Shown here: positions 2,588 through 24,693 of the stretch, piece by piece
How the letters are laid out: every line of letters begins with the position of its first letter
How positions within the stretch are numbered: the stretch's first letter is position 1
IMG/VR virus record: IMGVR_UViG_3300024518_004217
Location: 1-27,244 of that record
Source of the DNA: a virus
Length of the DNA stretch: 27,244 bases
Reading direction: 5' to 3' (one strand)
The notes under the pieces: model-generated
Seen by the model: the letters and a program-made list of their open reading frames with translations, nothing else
Database searches by the model: none
What the model was told of the DNA's origin: nothing
Program-made: the position numbers and the translations under genes

Positions 2588-4030
2588 GTGGGCGGGCACG
2601 ACACCCTTCTGGCGCAGATAACGGCGCTCGAGGCCGAGGCAAAGCGCCGGGAGACCGTCGCCACCTCGGAGCGGTGGTGCCCCCATGACCCGACCGAAGT
2701 TCAACAGCGGTTCCTCGACCTCGACGACGAGGAGGCCCTGTACGGTGGCGCTGCCGGTGGTGGCAAGTCCGATGCGCTACTCATGGGTCTGTTGTCCCAC
2801 GTCCATATCCCCAAGTACGCCGGGCTGGGGATTCGGCGAACCTACGCAGACCTGTCCCTCCCTGGTGCCCTCATGGACCGGGCTGCCGAGTGGCTCGCCC
2901 CCACCGCCGCGCACTGGAACCACGACAAAAAGCGATGGACGTTCCCGAGCGGAGCGATCATCACCTTTGGCTACTGCGAGAGCGACAACGATCGATTCCG
3001 CTACGCCTCCGCCGAGTTCCAAGAGATCGCCTTCGACGAGCTCACCCAGTTCTCTGAGGTCCAGTACACCTACCTGAGCTCGCGCCTGCGCTCGCTCGTA
3101 GACTTCCCGTTCACCCCCCGCATGCGAGCCGCGTCCAACCCCGGCGGCGTCGGGCACAAATGGGTGCATGACCGGTTCCTCGGCGAGGATTCGGTGTTCC
3201 CGTTCGTCCCCGCGCGCATCGCGGATAACCCGTTCATCAATCAGGCCGAGTACGCGAAAAAGCTCAGCCGCCTCGACTCCATCACGCGCGCCCAGCTCCT
3301 GAACGGCGAGTGGGTCCAAGACGTCCAGGGGCTGATCTACCCGTACACCCGGGGCAACAAGATCGAGTCCGTCCCGGTCATCCCGGGCAAGTGGTATCAC
3401 GTGCTCGGGGTCGACCTCGGAGCGTCGGAATCCAAGCCCACGACCGCCTTTTGCGTCCTCGGCTGGTGCGATCAGGTCCCCCGCGGCGTGTGGGTCGTTC
3501 AGAGCGAAGTGCACGCGGGCATGATCCCCAGCACCATCGCGGCTCGCATCGAGGAGCTCATGACAGAATACGGGGGCTTCACCCAGATCGTGGTCGACGA
3601 AGGGGCCCTCGGTCGGGGCTACGGCCGGGAATTCCGCGAGGTGTACGCCCTGCCGACCCGAAGCGCTGAAAAGCAGTCCAAGATGGGCTTTCGAAAGCTT
3701 CTCCGGGGCGCGCTCGAGCGTCAGGAGGTGCAGATCGTCGAGATCAGCAACAAAGAGCTGCTCGGCGAGATGGATGCCCTGCGGTGGAACGAGGACGGCA
3801 CCGACAACGAGAAGGGGGCCGACAACCACGCCACCGACGCGCTACTGTACGCATGGAGAGCGACCAAGAGCCACGCGGCCAAGGCCCCCAAGGGCACCCA
3901 CAAGCGGTTCAGCCCGGAGTGGTATAAGGCCGAGGGCGAGAAAATGATGAAGGACGATCTAGAGGACTGTCGCAACCGGGCCAAGCGCGCCCGGAACCCG
4001 CGGGCCTGGTGGAGGCGTGATGGCGACTGA
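2588..4030 (+). CDS. terL: Terminase large subunit
   Basis: The 480-residue DNA-packaging motor: an ATPase that pumps DNA through the portal and a nuclease that cuts concatemers. Walker A is GGAAGGGKS (53-61), Walker B IAFDE (147-151) and the coupling motif SNPGG (183-187). The RNase H-like nuclease shows VDLG (D276), VVDEG (D337) and NHATDALLYAW (D417). Motif order and length are complete for a Terminase_6-type protein. GTG 2588 was chosen because the first in-frame ATG lies beyond Walker A; no strong ribosome site is visible. Its last 11 bases overlap the portal start. No small terminase subunit is recognisable next to it. Confidence 0.96.
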   Translation: MGGHDTLLAQITALEAEAKRRETVATSERWCPHDPTEVQQRFLDLDDEEALYGGAAGGGKSDALLMGLLSHVHIPKYAGLGIRRTYADLSLPGALMDRAAEWLAPTAAHWNHDKKRWTFPSGAIITFGYCESDNDRFRYASAEFQEIAFDELTQFSEVQYTYLSSRLRSLVDFPFTPRMRAASNPGGVGHKWVHDRFLGEDSVFPFVPARIADNPFINQAEYAKKLSRLDSITRAQLLNGEWVQDVQGLIYPYTRGNKIESVPVIPGKWYHVLGVDLGASESKPTTAFCVLGWCDQVPRGVWVVQSEVHAGMIPSTIAARIEELMTEYGGFTQIVVDEGALGRGYGREFREVYALPTRSAEKQSKMGFRKLLRGALERQEVQIVEISNKELLGEMDALRWNEDGTDNEKGADNHATDALLYAWRATKSHAAKAPKGTHKRFSPEWYKAEGEKMMKDDLEDCRNRAKRARNPRAWWRRDGD

Positions 4031-5960: not shown

Positions 5961-6215
5961 ATGGCGAAAACGACACCAGGACAGCGCTCGGAGGCCCGGA
6001 AGCGGCGGCGCCGGACAACCGAATTTGTGCGCGCGGCCTCCGGCGCCAATCTCACGCAGCGCGAGCTGGACGCCATTCGACGCCGCGGTGTCCCCACGTC
6101 GCAGGAGATCAATCGCCTTCGCCGCACGAGCGGCGGCGCCGTCACCGCCGAGGAAGAACGCGCGATCATGGAGACTATGGGCGCCGACGGGCGACGTCGC
6201 CGGAGGCGCAAGTAG
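5961..6215 (+). CDS. Arg-rich small protein 1 of 3
   Basis: 84 residues, with ribosome site GGAGGACGAG before ATG 5961. Extremely basic at both ends: ARKRRRRTT at about 12-20 and a C-terminal DGRRRRRRK. The middle is helical with SQEINRLRRTSGGAV. The last third lines up with the next gene (LR-x-TSGGA ... DGRRRRRR), suggesting duplication. It lies between portal and scaffold, a position where phages often place small head proteins. It may coat or condense DNA, or serve as a minor virion or packaging component. No known family is recognised. Confidence 0.75.
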   Translation: MAKTTPGQRSEARKRRRRTTEFVRAASGANLTQRELDAIRRRGVPTSQEINRLRRTSGGAVTAEEERAIMETMGADGRRRRRRK

Positions 6216-6466
6216 TGGCCAAGTCTCGTCGTGGATTGAAGCGTTCCCCCCGCCAGCGCGGAAGCAGGGCCGCCCGGCTGGCGACCACCGGCCTGCTCGG
6301 AGCTCCGGCGGCCATCGGCGCCGCGGTGGCTGACATCGATCGCCAGCTCGTGGGCGCCCGCGATCGGCTGCGCGCCACCAGCGGCGGGGCCATGAACGAG
6401 ACGGAGGCCCGCGAGCGCGCTACGACGACAGACCGAGACGGCAGGCGTCGGAGGCGGCGGCGATGA
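6215..6466 (+). CDS. Arg-rich small protein 2 of 3
   Basis: 83 residues from a GTG sharing its G with the upstream TAG (TAGTG), implying coupled translation. The N-terminus is basic (KSRRGLKRSPRQRG). A small hydrophobic Ala/Gly/Leu stretch at about 24-38 could be a short membrane-active or packing helix. The C-terminus repeats the first protein's LRATSGGA...DGRRRRRR pattern. The two proteins are probably paralogues that diverged at the N-terminus. Function unknown. Confidence 0.7.
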   Translation: MAKSRRGLKRSPRQRGSRAARLATTGLLGAPAAIGAAVADIDRQLVGARDRLRATSGGAMNETEARERATTTDRDGRRRRRRR

Positions 6467-6714
6467 CCAAGCGCAGGCGCCGGGTAAAGACGAACACGCG
6501 CCTCGACGCCCGCCCCTCGCTGCAGGAAGCAATCGAGTCAGCGGCCGGGGGCATGGGGGTCGCCGTTGTGCGTCGGGTCCAGAGGGCACGCAGCACAGGC
6601 CGCACCATCGAGGATCAGGCCCGGGCCCGCCGTCGACGAGAAGCACAAGATCGCGAGCGTGAGCGCCGCCGGGCGGCAAGACTACGGACGCGGCTCCGAA
6701 CCCGGGGCCGCTAG
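6463..6714 (+). CDS. Arg-rich small protein 3 of 3
   Basis: 83 residues, start overlapping the preceding stop (ATGA). It begins MTKRRRRVKT. The C-terminal 35 residues are almost entirely Arg, Ala and Glu in a long helix (ARARRRREAQ, ERRRAARLRT). It lacks the TSGGA motif of the other two, so common ancestry is less clear, but size, charge and coupling are the same. A charged helix of this type could bind DNA or RNA or stack against the acidic scaffold encoded next. Role unknown. Confidence 0.65.
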   Translation: MTKRRRRVKTNTRLDARPSLQEAIESAAGGMGVAVVRRVQRARSTGRTIEDQARARRRREAQDRERERRRAARLRTRLRTRGR

Positions 6715-6723
6715 GGAGGGACC

Positions 6724-7875
6724 ATGGCCGAGGAACAGACCGAGACCGCCCCCGAGGCGGGAGCCGAACCCGTGCAGCCGCCGCCGGACGTGTCCGCTGC
6801 GGACGGGGAAAAGATCATCGAATCCGCCGCCGAGGCGGCCGAGCTCCACGCAAGAGCGGGTGAGCGCAGAAACAAGGGCGATCAAGACGCCTTCGCTCGA
6901 GCCATGGAAGCCATGGGCGGGGAGCCGGAGGTTTCCGAGCCGAAGCCGGAGGTTTCCGAGCCGAAGCCGGAGGTTTCCGAGCCGAAGCCGGAAGCAGCGC
7001 CCGCGGAAAGCAAGGGGGCGGAGGCCGCCGCCGAGACGGGCGCCCCCGAGCCCGGGCCCGAGGCGGTTCCCCAGGAGCGTGCCCGGTGGGCGGCGCTGAC
7101 CCAGGCCGAGCAGCGCATCACCCAGCAGCGCCGGGAGATGAAAGCAGACATGGAGGCGCTCAGGCAGGAGCGCGCCAAGTTTGAGGCGAAACTGCAGGGC
7201 CTGGCCAAGCTCGACGGCGGCGACGCCGTCGGCGGGCTCGCGGATCTCGGGATCTCCTACAACGATCTCACCGCATCCGTGCTCAAGAGCGGCGACCCAT
7301 CGCAGAAGATCGAGCCGCACCTGGAGCCCCTACAGAAGCAACTGGCCGAGATGGAAACGCGCCTCAAGGCCCGCGAGGAGGCGGTGGCCCAGCGCGACCA
7401 ACAGCAACAGATGGCCGGGGTTATGACCACCATCCGCGCCACCATCGAGGGTGGAAAGGAGGAGCGATACGAGCTTCTGAGCTCCTATCCGAACGCGGAA
7501 CACGAGGTGTTCACGCTGATCAAAACGGAATGGGAGCGCGCGGGTTCTCCGTCTGATCTGAACGGCAACCCACAGGCCACGTTGACGAGGGAGCAGGCCG
7601 CGGATAGGCTTGAGGCGCATCTACTCGAGGAGGCGACCTCACGCCTGAGCGCCAAAAAGGTCCGGGCCCTCCTCGAAAACGGTGCGAAGCAGACGCAAAA
7701 GACACCGGCAGCTCCGAGCGCGAATCAGGGGCAGAAGACGGGACGAAAGCGTCCCAAGACCCAAACCCTGACAAACAACCAATCCGGGCAGGTGGCTCGT
7801 ACCGGTGGAGTGGACTACTCCGCCGCGGCGTGTCGCGCCCGGGCGCTCGAGGCGATGCAGGAGGAAGGGGAATAG
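6724..7875 (+). CDS. Probable scaffolding protein
   Basis: 383 residues, acidic, directly upstream of the major capsid gene, with AGGGA before ATG 6724. The N-terminal 110 residues are Glu/Pro/Ala-rich and include three identical 7-residue repeats (EVSEPKP, residues 69-89). Two coiled-coil-like stretches follow (about 124-162, with ALRQERAKFE, and about 199-230, with LQKQLAEMETR). The basic C-terminal region (about 330-360, GRKRPKTQT) would suit contact with the coat protein. Composition and position are classical for scaffolds that direct procapsid assembly and then leave. No protease motif was noticed. Confidence 0.8.
   Translation: MAEEQTETAPEAGAEPVQPPPDVSAADGEKIIESAAEAAELHARAGERRNKGDQDAFARAMEAMGGEPEVSEPKPEVSEPKPEVSEPKPEAAPAESKGAEAAAETGAPEPGPEAVPQERARWAALTQAEQRITQQRREMKADMEALRQERAKFEAKLQGLAKLDGGDAVGGLADLGISYNDLTASVLKSGDPSQKIEPHLEPLQKQLAEMETRLKAREEAVAQRDQQQQMAGVMTTIRATIEGGKEERYELLSSYPNAEHEVFTLIKTEWERAGSPSDLNGNPQATLTREQAADRLEAHLLEEATSRLSAKKVRALLENGAKQTQKTPAAPSANQGQKTGRKRPKTQTLTNNQSGQVARTGGVDYSAAACRARALEAMQEEGE
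6928..6990 (+). repeat. Three perfect 21-bp tandem repeats in the scaffold gene
   Basis: The unit encoding EVSEPKP occurs three times with no mismatch (6928-6948, 6949-6969, 6970-6990). Identity at third codon positions points to recent expansion by slippage. The repeat keeps frame and lengthens an acidic/Pro-rich linker between the N-terminus and the coiled coil. Copy number could vary between related phages, or reflect an assembly choice. Confidence 0.95.
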
Positions 7876-20036: not shown

Positions 20037-20438
20037 ATGGGAGATTCCCCCATCGTAGTGAAGGCCATTCCCATTCAGGCGCCGATCGAGGTCTACGTGC
20101 GGGCGACCGTTGCCGCGTCGGAGTCGATCCGGTTGCCCGACGAGTTCAAGAGAAACCACGTCTCGGTCCAGGCGGATGGAGAGGACGTGTATGTGCGGTT
20201 CGGCATCACGGCCCAGACCGCGGACGACACGGCCGTGAGCGCCCTTGGGCCCCCGATTGTGGCTGCCGTCAACGGCACCGCGAAGGTCGCCAACGGAACC
20301 ACCGAGCGGTTCGATCTCGAAAAGATGTTCGGGAGCGAGCATGCCGATGGCGGGGATATCTTCATGGCCCACATCTCGCCGGTGGGCGGACAGTTCATGC
20401 GCTTCTGGCGCTCGAGCGGGCGCGTAGTCCCGACCTGA
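20037..20438 (+). CDS. Small structural protein, beta-rich
   Basis: 133 residues, ribosome site GGAGACGAGG before ATG 20037. Alternating strands (IQAPIEVYVRATVA, HVSVQADGEDVYVRF) suggest a compact beta-sandwich. No cysteine, signal or membrane segment. It is the first gene after the ejection set and before the fibre-like genes, so it may be a tail or fibre connector. No family is recognised. Confidence 0.6.
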   Translation: MGDSPIVVKAIPIQAPIEVYVRATVAASESIRLPDEFKRNHVSVQADGEDVYVRFGITAQTADDTAVSALGPPIVAAVNGTAKVANGTTERFDLEKMFGSEHADGGDIFMAHISPVGGQFMRFWRSSGRVVPT

Positions 20439-20448
20439 GCGAGGGCAG

Positions 20449-21051
20449 ATGATTCTGCGCCCGTTCAACGTCAACTCTCGGGGCACCCGATACTCGTTCA
20501 TCGACCAGCTGGCCGTCGACTCCGACGCGGAGCGCGCCGCGATCCAACAGGCCGTGCAGCTGCAGCTCGCCCTGATGCCCGAGGACGCCAAGTGTGCGGC
20601 GCTGGGGATCGCGGAGACGGGCACCTTCGGCAACATCCAACTCGGGGTGTACGACGGCTCGACCCTCACGGGTGCGTTCCTTCTGACGTCGCTCGACTAC
20701 CAGTCCGGTCCATGGGCCGACCTCGTAGACTGGCAGGTCACGAGCTCCGATCCCGCGGTGTTCCACGGCCGCCCGATGCCAGGCTTTCCCGCCCTGTCGC
20801 TAGCCGATTCGCTGGATCTGTCTGTCGACGCTGCACACCACATGCTTGCCCGCCGGATACAGTCCGTGGGTGGCCATGACGTGAAGTTCCAGCGCCTGAG
20901 CTGGGCTGTGTTCAAGGGCAGGGCCGACCCGCGGTCCCGTGCAGCCAACCGCGTGCACGACAAGGCCGCGGCGGACGGGCGGTTTCGCATGACGGAGGCG
21001 CCCGACGGCAATGATGCGACGCTGACCCGGGTGGACATCGAGCTGGCCTGA
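20449..21051 (+). CDS. Structural protein of unknown type
   Basis: 200 residues from ATG 20449, with GAGGG upstream. Residues 1-60 begin MILRPFNVNSRGTRYS and include a helical Gln/Ala segment. A beta-type middle follows (about 60-110, GNIQLGVYDGSTL, FLLTSLDYQSG), then a mixed C-terminal half with two histidine-containing helices. The stop overlaps the next start as TGATG. It is encoded directly upstream of the choice-of-anchor-like protein and may be its partner or tail attachment piece. No known family is recognised. Confidence 0.6.
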   Translation: MILRPFNVNSRGTRYSFIDQLAVDSDAERAAIQQAVQLQLALMPEDAKCAALGIAETGTFGNIQLGVYDGSTLTGAFLLTSLDYQSGPWADLVDWQVTSSDPAVFHGRPMPGFPALSLADSLDLSVDAAHHMLARRIQSVGGHDVKFQRLSWAVFKGRADPRSRAANRVHDKAAADGRFRMTEAPDGNDATLTRVDIELA

Positions 21052-22292
21052 TGCCGACCGTGATCTCGACCGCGAGCGTTGCGCAGGCGATCGATGAAAC
21101 GTACGGGTTCGACAACCTAGCCCCGCTCGCTGGCACGTGGCGGAACATTTCTTGGCCATCCAACACGCCGCTCGTGTGGGGGAGGCAGGCCGGAAAGTTC
21201 ACCTTCGACTTCGAAGAGGTGGTGTTCAAGTTCTCGAACATGACCCCCGCCATCCCGGCGGACGCCAAGATCGTGAGCGCCATCCTTCGCGGGCGTGCAA
21301 CCCAGACCTCGACGCCAGCTACGTTCTTTACCGTGATCCAGGTGAACGTGAACGACGGGCACTGGAACCTGCCGAGCGCATCGGGGTGGCGCACCGCGAG
21401 CCCGGTGGGAACGCCGTCCGAGGCGGATGTGCACGTGCGGAACCTCGGGCTCGGCACGATCGTGGACACGGCGGTAGCACCCACGCACCCGTGGGCGATC
21501 CGCGACAACACGGCGAGCCGCTACCTACGAGCTGGACAGGGTGTCGAGGTTGCGGTGGCCGGTACGCTCGGGTTCGTGGACATCACACTGAACCGGCTGG
21601 GTGCGGTGGGTGTCGGCAACGTCTGGTGCGAGGTCTATTCGCAGGACGCCGATGGGCTGGCCGACACGCTCCTCGCGACGAGCACGACGCGCCTGGCCTC
21701 AGCGGTCCCCGCGGCCGCGGCGCCGTTCCGGTTCACATTCCCTGCGCCGGAGCAGATCGCCCTGACGCTGGGGCAGGACATCGTGGTGGTCCTCAATGGC
21801 GACTACCCGGTCTCTGCAACGCAGAACATCGCCATGTGGTGGACGCCCACCGGCGGAGCTCACGGAGCCTTCCAGCTCGACGGCACGGGGATCGGGCTCG
21901 ACGACCAGAACTACCCGATGCAGGACAGCTTTAGGACGATCCCGACAACCGCCGGGTTCGTGGTGTGGGTCGCCCCACGGTTCTTCGTTGGCGTCGACTA
22001 TGACACCCCTTCGTTTGCCGCGCTGCTCCAGGCGTTCCTTCACTCCGGCAGCTATACCGAGGGCGATCCGTTTGCAGTGAGCGTGGCGCGCAACCTGCTG
22101 TTTTTCCCCGCCGGCACCGCTGACCGCCGCTGGGCCAACTTCGCCCACGCCTCCCCGTCTGTGCAGCTGATCGTGGAGTGGACGATCCTGCCTGACAGGC
22201 TATTTCTGCTATCGTCCCGCGGGACCCAGCGCCATAATCTGAAGGCGGCCACGTCCCGCCGGTTCCTGCTACCCGTCAAGAGGATCGAATGA
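21051..22292 (+). CDS. Fibre or adhesin protein with a choice-of-anchor-like domain
   Basis: 413 residues, beta-rich throughout. Residues about 1-140 look like a jelly-roll type domain (FTFDFEEVVFKFSNM, ILRGRATQT). Residues about 165-275 resemble choice-of-anchor R-type domains (GNVWCEVYSQDADGLADTLL, FTFPAPEQIALTLGQDIVVV), beta-sandwiches found in many surface and fibre proteins. The C-terminal 70 residues turn basic and hydrophobic (LFLLSSRGTQRHN). Probably a virion surface protein that contacts host glycans or forms a fibre. No depolymerase motif is visible. Its stop overlaps the next gene (ATGA). Confidence 0.6.
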   Translation: MPTVISTASVAQAIDETYGFDNLAPLAGTWRNISWPSNTPLVWGRQAGKFTFDFEEVVFKFSNMTPAIPADAKIVSAILRGRATQTSTPATFFTVIQVNVNDGHWNLPSASGWRTASPVGTPSEADVHVRNLGLGTIVDTAVAPTHPWAIRDNTASRYLRAGQGVEVAVAGTLGFVDITLNRLGAVGVGNVWCEVYSQDADGLADTLLATSTTRLASAVPAAAAPFRFTFPAPEQIALTLGQDIVVVLNGDYPVSATQNIAMWWTPTGGAHGAFQLDGTGIGLDDQNYPMQDSFRTIPTTAGFVVWVAPRFFVGVDYDTPSFAALLQAFLHSGSYTEGDPFAVSVARNLLFFPAGTADRRWANFAHASPSVQLIVEWTILPDRLFLLSSRGTQRHNLKAATSRRFLLPVKRIE

Positions 22293-22774
22293 GTGCACCC
22301 AAGTCCAGCGTAACGCGCACGGTCGATACCACCGGCGACGAGATCAAGAGTTTCCAAGATGGCTTGACCGTCCCGGGCGCTCGCGAGGTTCAGGGTATGG
22401 CCCTCGACCCTGAGATACAGGGCTGTCTGCTCACCAACGGGGTGACCAACGGCACGGCCGTCGATCAGGAAACGGTCACCGCGACCGCCGGGGCCCTGCT
22501 GTTCCGAGCCGACGCAATCCTCACCGACCCGGCTCCGTCAGGGGACCGGTGGCTGATGGTGTTCGACAAAGCGGGCGCCGCGATCAACACCGACCTGCCG
22601 ATCCTCCGCTCGCCCAAGCTGGTGGGTGGGTTCGCCAGCATCGACCTCGGGGTCTACGGGATCCAGGCCACCCTTGGCTTGGTCGTGGCGCTGTCCACCA
22701 CACCCGATGCCCTCACCCTGAGCACCGTTGGCGACGGGTTCTTTCAGTACGCCTATTCGCTGCCGTCCACGTGA
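22289..22774 (+). CDS. Small fibre-region protein
   Basis: 161 residues, starting at an ATGA overlap. Ser/Thr/Gly-rich beta-type sequence with an N-terminal polar segment (about 1-30), one cysteine in GCLLTNG, and a hydrophobic beta centre (ALLFRADAILTD, WLMVFDKAG). The segment from about 62 to 158 reads like a single beta-sandwich. It lies between the choice-of-anchor-like protein and the paired paralogues, so it is likely part of the same adhesion module. Specific function not recognised. Confidence 0.55.
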   Translation: MSAPKSSVTRTVDTTGDEIKSFQDGLTVPGAREVQGMALDPEIQGCLLTNGVTNGTAVDQETVTATAGALLFRADAILTDPAPSGDRWLMVFDKAGAAINTDLPILRSPKLVGGFASIDLGVYGIQATLGLVVALSTTPDALTLSTVGDGFFQYAYSLPST

Positions 22775-22782
22775 GGTGAAGC

Positions 22783-23520
22783 ATGGCACTCGCAACAGGT
22801 AGCGGCGTGAGGCCCGGCGCGGGCGGGGAGCTCGCCTTCGAGTGGAATCACACCGATCTCTCGCAGTTCGTGAGCGCCGGGGCGATGGACCTTGCGCAGG
22901 GAGGCGGCGGCGGAGCGTGGTCGGTATCGAACGTGGCCGAGCGCGGCAACTGCCTGCTCTACACCCCAGCCGGTGGGACCGGCGTCACCGAGATCGCGAT
23001 GTTCTCCCCGTCTCTCATCCACCCCACCGAGCGCAGGGATCTCGTCGTGGAGATGGAGCTCTACGATGCCACGTTTGGCAGCGGGTACGTCGGCCCGTTC
23101 GTGTTGGCCGACGCGGACACGCCAGCTCACGGGTTCGGTCACTTCGGCTCGGGCGTCCTCGAGTGGCAGCTGCTCCTGAACAATAGCGTCGTGGAGCATG
23201 ACGCCAGCACAGGGATCCAGGGCGATCGGTTCGCGCGCTACTTCATCCGCGGCCGCAAGCCAGCGGGGGCGGCGCCAGAGGTGTCGTCCTTCTTCGAGGC
23301 GTGGACGACGGTTGCGACGGCAGCGCCCCGGCCCCGCCGCAGCGGCAGCAGCGTTCCCATCCGCGGGTCGCTCAACAACTTCGGGAACAACAGCACCCTG
23401 GGAGCCACCTGGAACGCGCTGGACTGCAACCGCTTTGGCCTCGTGGTCGGCTCTAACGCTGGCGCTGCCCCGCCCCCCTCGATCCGCATCCTCGACTTCA
23501 AGGTCTACGTGGTGGGGTGA
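22783..23520 (+). CDS. Receptor-binding-type protein, paralogue A
   Basis: 245 residues; AGGTGA before ATG 22783. Its sequence lines up end to end with the next gene: GELAFEWNHTDLSQF versus GELVFEWNKVDISQW, PTERRDLVVEMEL versus PTTRRDFSIEVEF, the RGxKPAG loop, GNNSTLGATWNALDC versus GNNTTFNASWNAIEC, and ILDFKVYVVG versus ILDYRVYLVG. The pattern of strands, with a closing 'ildykVyvvg' strand, suggests a LamG/concanavalin-like jelly roll. It is a plausible tail spike or receptor-binding head, but no fold is proven. The middle (RDLVVEMELYDATFG) has diverged most from its partner. Confidence 0.65.
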   Translation: MALATGSGVRPGAGGELAFEWNHTDLSQFVSAGAMDLAQGGGGGAWSVSNVAERGNCLLYTPAGGTGVTEIAMFSPSLIHPTERRDLVVEMELYDATFGSGYVGPFVLADADTPAHGFGHFGSGVLEWQLLLNNSVVEHDASTGIQGDRFARYFIRGRKPAGAAPEVSSFFEAWTTVATAAPRPRRSGSSVPIRGSLNNFGNNSTLGATWNALDCNRFGLVVGSNAGAAPPPSIRILDFKVYVVG

Positions 23521-23523
23521 GCT

Positions 23524-24261
23524 GTGGCGATCTCCGCAGGAATCCCGCAGGGCGAGCTCGTCTTCGAGTGGAACAAGGTCGACATCTCCCAGTGGAATGG
23601 GATCAACCCAGTCTTTTCGACGCCCGCCGGAGCCGAAAACTCCACGCTGTCGGTGGTCGCCTCGAGCGAGCGCGGCAACGTCCTACGCATGACGGCCGAT
23701 GGCGTGGCCACGCCGAACATGCGGGCGGTGTGGATTTGCAACACGCCCATCCCGTTCCCGACCACGCGCCGCGATTTCTCAATCGAGGTTGAGTTTGCGG
23801 CCCAGGATGTGACGGCCTCCCGCCTCGCGGGCGTCGTCTTCATGGCCGACGGGTCAGCATCCAACTACTTCCAGCACTACTGGGCGACCACCGGCGAGGG
23901 CACCATCCTCCGCAACAACGGGGTGCAAGAGTTCGTCTCGTTCAACGCGAACCAGTTCAACGACGGCGGACGCAGCGTCTACACCATGCGCGGCGACAAG
24001 CCAGCGGGTGGTCCGCCCCGCTCCTCGGTCTACACACAGAACAGCGACGAAACGAACCTCAACGGGCACAGCTATCGCACCGGGAGCAGCTCGGCCATTC
24101 GCGGAGCCGTAACGGACATGGGGAACAACACCACCTTCAACGCCTCGTGGAACGCGATCGAGTGCGATCGGTTCGGAATCTCCATTCTCTCGGCCAACAC
24201 GGGCCCGCTGGCCATCGATATCCTAGATTATCGGGTCTATCTGGTGGGAGGCGGGTGCTGA
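23524..24261 (+). CDS. Receptor-binding-type protein, paralogue B
   Basis: 245 residues, the same length as its upstream paralogue, from GTG 23524 three bases after the previous stop. Conserved anchor segments are GELVFEWN, RGDKPAG, GNNTTFNASWNAIEC and ILDYRVYLVG. Differences cluster in the central loops (about 95-195), including NYFQHYWATTGEG and FNANQFNDGG. Such clustered change is expected of binding surfaces under selection. The two proteins could form a mixed trimer or bind two receptors. Whether this one carries an enzyme activity is not visible. Confidence 0.65.
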   Translation: MAISAGIPQGELVFEWNKVDISQWNGINPVFSTPAGAENSTLSVVASSERGNVLRMTADGVATPNMRAVWICNTPIPFPTTRRDFSIEVEFAAQDVTASRLAGVVFMADGSASNYFQHYWATTGEGTILRNNGVQEFVSFNANQFNDGGRSVYTMRGDKPAGGPPRSSVYTQNSDETNLNGHSYRTGSSSAIRGAVTDMGNNTTFNASWNAIECDRFGISILSANTGPLAIDILDYRVYLVGGGC

Positions 24262-24262
24262 C

Positions 24263-24361
24263 ATGAGCCTGTGCGTACTGTTTGATACCAGGGTCGCTGG
24301 CACCGGTAGGGCCATGCGCTTTATCCTAGCCGTGGCTGTGGTCAGGAGGTTTGTGCTGTGA
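24263..24361 (+). CDS. Possible 32-residue hydrophobic mini-protein
   Basis: ATG 24263 follows the paralogue B stop by one base. The frame encodes MSLCVLFDTRVAGTG then a hydrophobic run (MRFILAVAVV) and ends in a TGA overlapping the GTGA start of the next gene. No strong ribosome site is close (GGGAGG lies about 12 bases upstream), so it may be a leader that couples translation across the gap, or chance. AGGAGG inside it (24344-24349) serves the next start. Confidence 0.3.
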   Translation: MSLCVLFDTRVAGTGRAMRFILAVAVVRRFVL

Positions 24362-24693
24362 GCGGGTCTGGAGATTGCGATTTCCACCTCGGGGATACCG
24401 GGGTTGATCTGACGGTCGAGATCCCGGACTGCAGCGACGGGGCGGCGGCGAGCGATCGCCTCGACCTGACGGGTGCGACCACGACCGAGATCACCCTGAA
24501 GAAACCCGACGACTCGAGCACCACCAAGGTCGCCGTGATCGTTGGAGCTCCCACCAACGGGGTCATCGGCTACACCACGCTGGCTCCCGACCTCGACCAG
24601 ACGGGGACCTGGAAGATTCAGGGCCACGTGGTAGTGGGCACGCTCGACGTCCGAACCGAGGTCGGGGAGTTCATCGTCAGGGAGAACCTGTGA
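24358..24693 (+). CDS. Baseplate/fibre-like protein (BppU N-terminal type)
   Basis: 111 residues from GTG 24358, with AGGAGG 8 bases upstream. The pattern FHLGDTGVDLTVEI, LTGATTTEITLKKPD, GVIGYTT...DLDQTGTWKIQG and a final VGEFIV strand is the recurrent layout of small phage beta-sandwich proteins resembling the N-terminal domain of baseplate upper protein BppU. In larger proteins that domain attaches fibres to the tail. Here it is a stand-alone unit just before the lysis genes, so it may be a minor structural piece. GTGA overlaps its stop with the next start. Confidence 0.65.
   Translation: MSGSGDCDFHLGDTGVDLTVEIPDCSDGAAASDRLDLTGATTTEITLKKPDDSSTTKVAVIVGAPTNGVIGYTTLAPDLDQTGTWKIQGHVVVGTLDVRTEVGEFIVRENL

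Follow-up and report, generated by a model that had tools for sequence, protein, structure and literature searches.

Several receptor-binding proteins per phage are already well-established biology. The podoviruses K1-5 and SP6 carry two receptor-binding proteins that dock by N-terminal peptides of 7 and 11 residues (PMC6872550), and K1-5, SP6 and KP32 illustrate that a single phage can use two different receptor-binding proteins and that such proteins can lack a large anchor (PMC6872550). In these phages, the proteins are big tail spikes that usually act as enzymes (lyases, endosialidases or depolymerases), and they are not necessarily homologous to each other. Concanavalin A (ConA)-like domains have also been documented in phage tail fibres (PMC11058221), for example gp22 of the Acinetobacter siphophages fLi-Aba02/03, where predicted ConA-type domains (SSF49899, Laminin_G_3) occur in a tail-fibre context (PMC11058221). 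Here, we describe two adjacent genes, A and B, from a 27,244-bp IMG/VR record, which was analysed over its whole length (the window) and may be an incomplete fragment. We consider it probable that A and B encode a pair of small, lectin-like (ConA-like sandwich) receptor-binding proteins in the tail-fibre slot of a probably short-tailed phage. The arrangement recalls K1-5, SP6 and KP32, but A and B are small proteins that are homologous to each other, predicted to be lectin-like and devoid of enzyme motifs, and no T4gp10-like adapter was identified. In contrast to gp22 of fLi-Aba02/03, the predicted domain constitutes the whole protein in A and B, and it has no detected sequence similarity to entries of Pfam, NCBIfam or the PDB.

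The two open reading frames of 245 residues each that had been noticed at 22783-24261 were confirmed (see the table below). GC3 is 0.865 in A and 0.849 in B, the same as in other structural genes of the window, and both therefore look like real genes. An AGGTGA-type ribosome site lies on the 5' side of the A start, and a G-rich stretch precedes B's own GTG. At the junction (window 23518-23526), the TGA of A is followed by GCT and then by the GTG of B, leaving a gap of 3 nt; B is in the same frame as A, and its open frame opens directly past A's stop. The earlier note also stated that the two proteins align along their length, which BLASTP bears out with 83/239 identities (35%), 111 bits and E 2e-34. 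Their Smith-Waterman score of 287 lies 45 SD above the 35.7 +/- 5.6 obtained in 1000 shuffles (best shuffle 63), and an all-against-all comparison of 23 window proteins yielded a strong match between A and B only. Judged from these alignments, A and B are homologous. Their equal length is in part a coincidence: both do have 245 residues, but A carries about five extra residues at the N-terminus and B about three at the C-terminus. Neither protein has a match in Pfam (none at E<=1), PHROG, NCBIfam or PDB sequences, and at the sequence level they are a new family, albeit of a known functional kind.

Features of the tail-fibre slot and its surroundings in the window
Feature	Coordinates	Strand	Remarks
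133-aa protein	20037..20438	+	similar-sized protein follows ejection-type protein in relatives; weak match, E 0.01-0.05
200-aa protein, unknown family	20449..21051	+	presumed tail-fibre slot
413-aa protein, unknown family	21051..22292	+	presumed tail-fibre slot; candidate structural partner
161-aa protein, unknown family	22289..22774	+	directly upstream of A; 4-nt overlap with preceding gene
A	22783..23520	+	245 aa, predicted lectin-like adhesin subunit; ATG; homologous domain about residues 15-245
B	23524..24261	+	245-aa paralogue of A; GTG; homologous domain about residues 10-242; AlphaFold model lectin-like
111-aa protein	24358..24693	+	sub-threshold match to BppU N-terminal domain, 19.9 bits vs gathering cut-off 23.1

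Two AlphaFold runs, one with two sequences (pLDDT 41, pTM 0.45) and one with three (pLDDT 44, pTM 0.49), returned models of very low confidence that share the same mostly-beta layout. Structural alignment (VIA-align) of the first model retrieved legume lectins, ERGIC-53 and phage baseplate proteins with Z up to 7.0. For the second model, the best 50 matches were almost exclusively legume lectins, with Z 9.2-10.2. Legume lectins matched at Z 9-10.2 over 182-202 residues; the best Z was 10.2, over 184-196 residues, and 133 of 1000 chains reached Z >= 8, for a model with a pLDDT of only 44. Foldseek placed a PL-14 alginate lyase first; ConA-type lyases, calreticulins and lectin domains of sialidases ranked high (E ~1e-4), and GH131 glucanases were also returned. 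When the first model was used for a fold search of BFVD, nothing scored below E 0.001, and neither A nor B has a Pfam sequence match at E<=1 to any family of the ConA-like superfamily, such as PF13385. Lectin-like baseplate or tail modules of phages E217, Pa193 and Douge are among the structural matches, with Z of only 5.6-6.6 for a weak model, but they have no sequence relationship to A and B. Given that both models are of very low confidence, the fold assignment rests on consistency rather than on quality; a concanavalin A/legume-lectin-like beta sandwich is the most likely fold, although not a proven one.

The earlier note had described conserved framework strands and divergent loops that are free to change. 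This picture was not recovered: with strands and coil assigned from the second, low-confidence model, A and B are identical at 36/108 strand positions (33%) and at 32/110 coil positions (29%; Fisher p = 0.56). Turn-like motifs (NNGVxE, RGxKPAG, RxGSSxxIR and GNNxT..WNA..CxRFG) account for several of the best-conserved blocks. As predicted strands and coil do not differ in identity, the data do not show that loops are freer to vary than the framework.

Along its + strand, the window encodes, in this order, a large terminase (phrog_979, E 1.5e-57), a portal protein (phrog_332/156), a scaffold-like protein and a major head protein (phrog_14242), followed by small genes, a protein of 1049 aa that matches phrog_511 (internal virion protein), and proteins of 291, 726 and 979 aa. 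The proteins just before the slot include two large ones of the ejection type; then come seven genes at 20037-24693, A and B among them, a protein of 139 aa that contains a hydrophobic segment, and an amidase. Together with this gene layout, the lack of a sheath, tape-measure or baseplate match in PHROGs among 20 window proteins suggests that the phage is probably short-tailed. Three consecutive small, very Arg-rich open reading frames lie between the portal and scaffold-like genes (5961-6714), the first two of which have a C-terminal GRRRRRR(K/R) and a common TSGGA motif; the scaffold-like protein (6724-7875) contains a short in-frame tandem repeat, EVSEPKPEVSEPKPEVSEPKPE. Within the slot, the overlap between the 161-aa gene and the preceding gene makes it likely that both belong to the same transcription unit. 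The BppU N-terminal domain, to which the 111-aa protein has its sub-threshold match, is a baseplate upper-protein domain usual in phages of Gram-positive hosts.

Among deposited phages, the terminase (2588-4030) has its top identity to archaeal psiM2/psiM100, at 48-50% across roughly half of the protein, unlike the structural genes of the window, which group with IMG/VR records. Relatives picked from IMG/VR by terminase alignment resemble the window in terminase (40-48%), portal (26-36%) and head protein (27-36%), and they also have the 1049-aa protein. Records G002-G005 and G013 have the portal, the major head protein and the 1049-aa protein in common with the window. None of the terminase-matched records searched contains a homologue of A or B, while the positive control (the L104 record) matched as expected. 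Because these closest relatives are devoid of a homologue, the A/B family cannot be followed within the lineage. The gene order can: in G003, G005 and G013, the gene after that of a large ejection-type protein encodes 132-142 aa, and large variable genes come next. The slot gene of G003 encodes 1046 aa and matches phrog_10356 (virion structural protein, E 1.3e-24), that of G005 encodes 324 aa with a weak match to phrog_10356, and that of G013 encodes 653 aa. In the window, the 133-aa protein occupies the equivalent place and is followed by the 200-, 413- and 161-aa proteins, A and B. This matching order places A and B in a slot of variable virion or fibre genes, and both lie between virion proteins and lysis genes, as expected for tail fibres.

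One true relative of A and B was found outside the window by a scan for the FEWN..D..Q motif common to both. It is a 277-aa gene (G040:C1:18498-19331) of IMG/VR record IMGVR_UViG_3300011253_000967 (44.5 kb), which is homologous to A and B over the whole domain (profile E 4e-55; 36-38% identity) and, like them, has no Pfam match at E<=1. With genes for a tail sheath (phrog_907, PF10758), a tape measure and Baseplate_J, the G040 record belongs to a contractile-tailed phage; in the comparisons made, no other gene of G040 is related to the window. The homologue lies downstream of Baseplate_J, with two genes between, and is itself followed by a Laminin_G_3 (ConA-like) gene (G040:C1:19822-20607) and an amidase. 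Profile comparison of the Laminin_G_3 neighbour with the A/B family was negative, which leaves its homology to the family unsupported. Orthology of the 111-aa gene at 24358 and a 108-aa gene of G040 was considered and rejected (E 0.024 in a single comparison). Whereas A and B are paired and start without a leader, the G040 gene is a single copy whose lectin part is preceded by 36 residues matching phrog_35750 (E 1.8e-4). The start of this leader, MSKKVTQLPAA, resembles that of the G013 slot gene, MSVKISELPAA (E 2e-4), and we read it as a fibre-type leader that is absent from A and B. Homology, the low-confidence lectin-like fold, the slot position and this leader-fused relative beside baseplate genes support in part the proposal that A and B are adhesin-like receptor-binding modules.

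The relative also bears on the origin of the pair, for which a tandem duplication had been suggested. On common columns, A and B share 32% identity, whereas A and the relative share 37% and B and the relative 36%. With this one outside sequence and an unrooted comparison, only 53 of 2000 bootstraps put A and B closest together. Paralogues may evolve faster. Given that A and B form the pair with the lowest similarity, the data give no indication of a recent local duplication. An old duplication, or the acquisition of two family members, fits the sequences better than a recent local event. Peptide-pattern scans with A, B and their alignment found no relatives in IMG/VR, and such scans of GTDB genomes found none either; two DNA-motif scans built from C-terminal motifs returned chance matches only, no significant match came from tblastn against phages and plasmids, and PDB sequence searches gave nothing. 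Same-record paralogue pairs were also sought among the genes predicted in the retrieved regions of G002-G005, G013 and G040, and none reached E<=1e-5.

As receptor-binding proteins, A and B would each be carried on the virion tail as binding subunits, and each would bind a surface glycan. Docking could occur via a short N-terminal peptide of 14 residues in A and 9 residues in B, which differ in sequence, or alternatively through a neighbouring slot protein. Neither protein has a recognisable tail-attachment or trimerisation domain, though short docking peptides would escape detection; likewise, genes around the slot (20037-24693) gave no T4gp10-like match in Pfam or PHROG, searches that may miss remote adapters. 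Given the 32-35% identity between A and B, different ligands seem more likely than redundancy, and two unlike copies would most simply correspond to two ligands. The pair would then work like the receptor-binding proteins of K1-5 and SP6, with simple binding domains in place of depolymerase spikes.

Other explanations of the pair have to be weighed against this one. A and B could jointly form one hetero-oligomeric fibre tip in which both are required for a single specificity, as their adjacency on the same strand, 3 nt apart, might indicate, and motifs conserved in both could make a shared interface. However, in-frame 3-nt gaps also separate three other, unrelated gene pairs of the window (14018/14022, 14897/14901 and 17081/17085), and the single copy in G040 implies that one copy can suffice elsewhere, so that we regard a mixed tip as rather unlikely. 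The same spacing also weighs against the idea that low-level readthrough of the TGA joins A and B into a two-domain protein of about 490 aa. While A, TGA, GCT and B do form one continuous frame, the recurrence of this gap at unrelated junctions downgrades the idea; B moreover has its own start with the G-rich stretch before it, and no recoding signal was identified, which makes readthrough highly improbable.

The missing tail-attachment domain would also be compatible with small lectin-like proteins that sit on the capsid or are released from the cell, serving decoration or glycan binding rather than the tail. Isolated lectin-like domains can decorate heads, but the head genes are distant from A and B, whose slot is occupied in relatives by fibre-type or virion structural genes, and the G040 relative adjoins baseplate genes; a function away from the tail is thus unlikely. 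The Foldseek matches to PL-14 and GH131 raise the question of whether A and B are ConA-fold enzymes that cleave polysaccharides, i.e. lyase or glucanase depolymerases. This we judge improbable, as none of the three sequences contains the E-x-D-x-E motif of GH16 enzymes or the QIH and R(S/T)EL motifs of PL7 enzymes, and their alignment has no invariant histidine.

A pair of lectin-like receptor-binding subunits in the tail-fibre slot is therefore the explanation we favour. It would add a host-recognition domain that current family libraries (Pfam, PHROG, NCBIfam) miss and that is present in two phages whose structural genes are otherwise unrelated. A profile of the three sequences could recognise fibre or adhesin genes that are now called hypothetical. 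The pair also illustrates that outside relatives should be consulted before adjacent homologues are taken for tandem duplicates: each of the two neighbours here is closer to an outside sequence than to the other. Tentatively, A, B and the G040 gene might form a new family whose stand-alone, lectin-type adhesins are exchanged between short- and contractile-tailed phages and may be stacked in unlike copies, a possibility that we regard with considerable doubt. If true, stacked unlike adhesins would provide several glycan specificities in one phage without large tail spikes.
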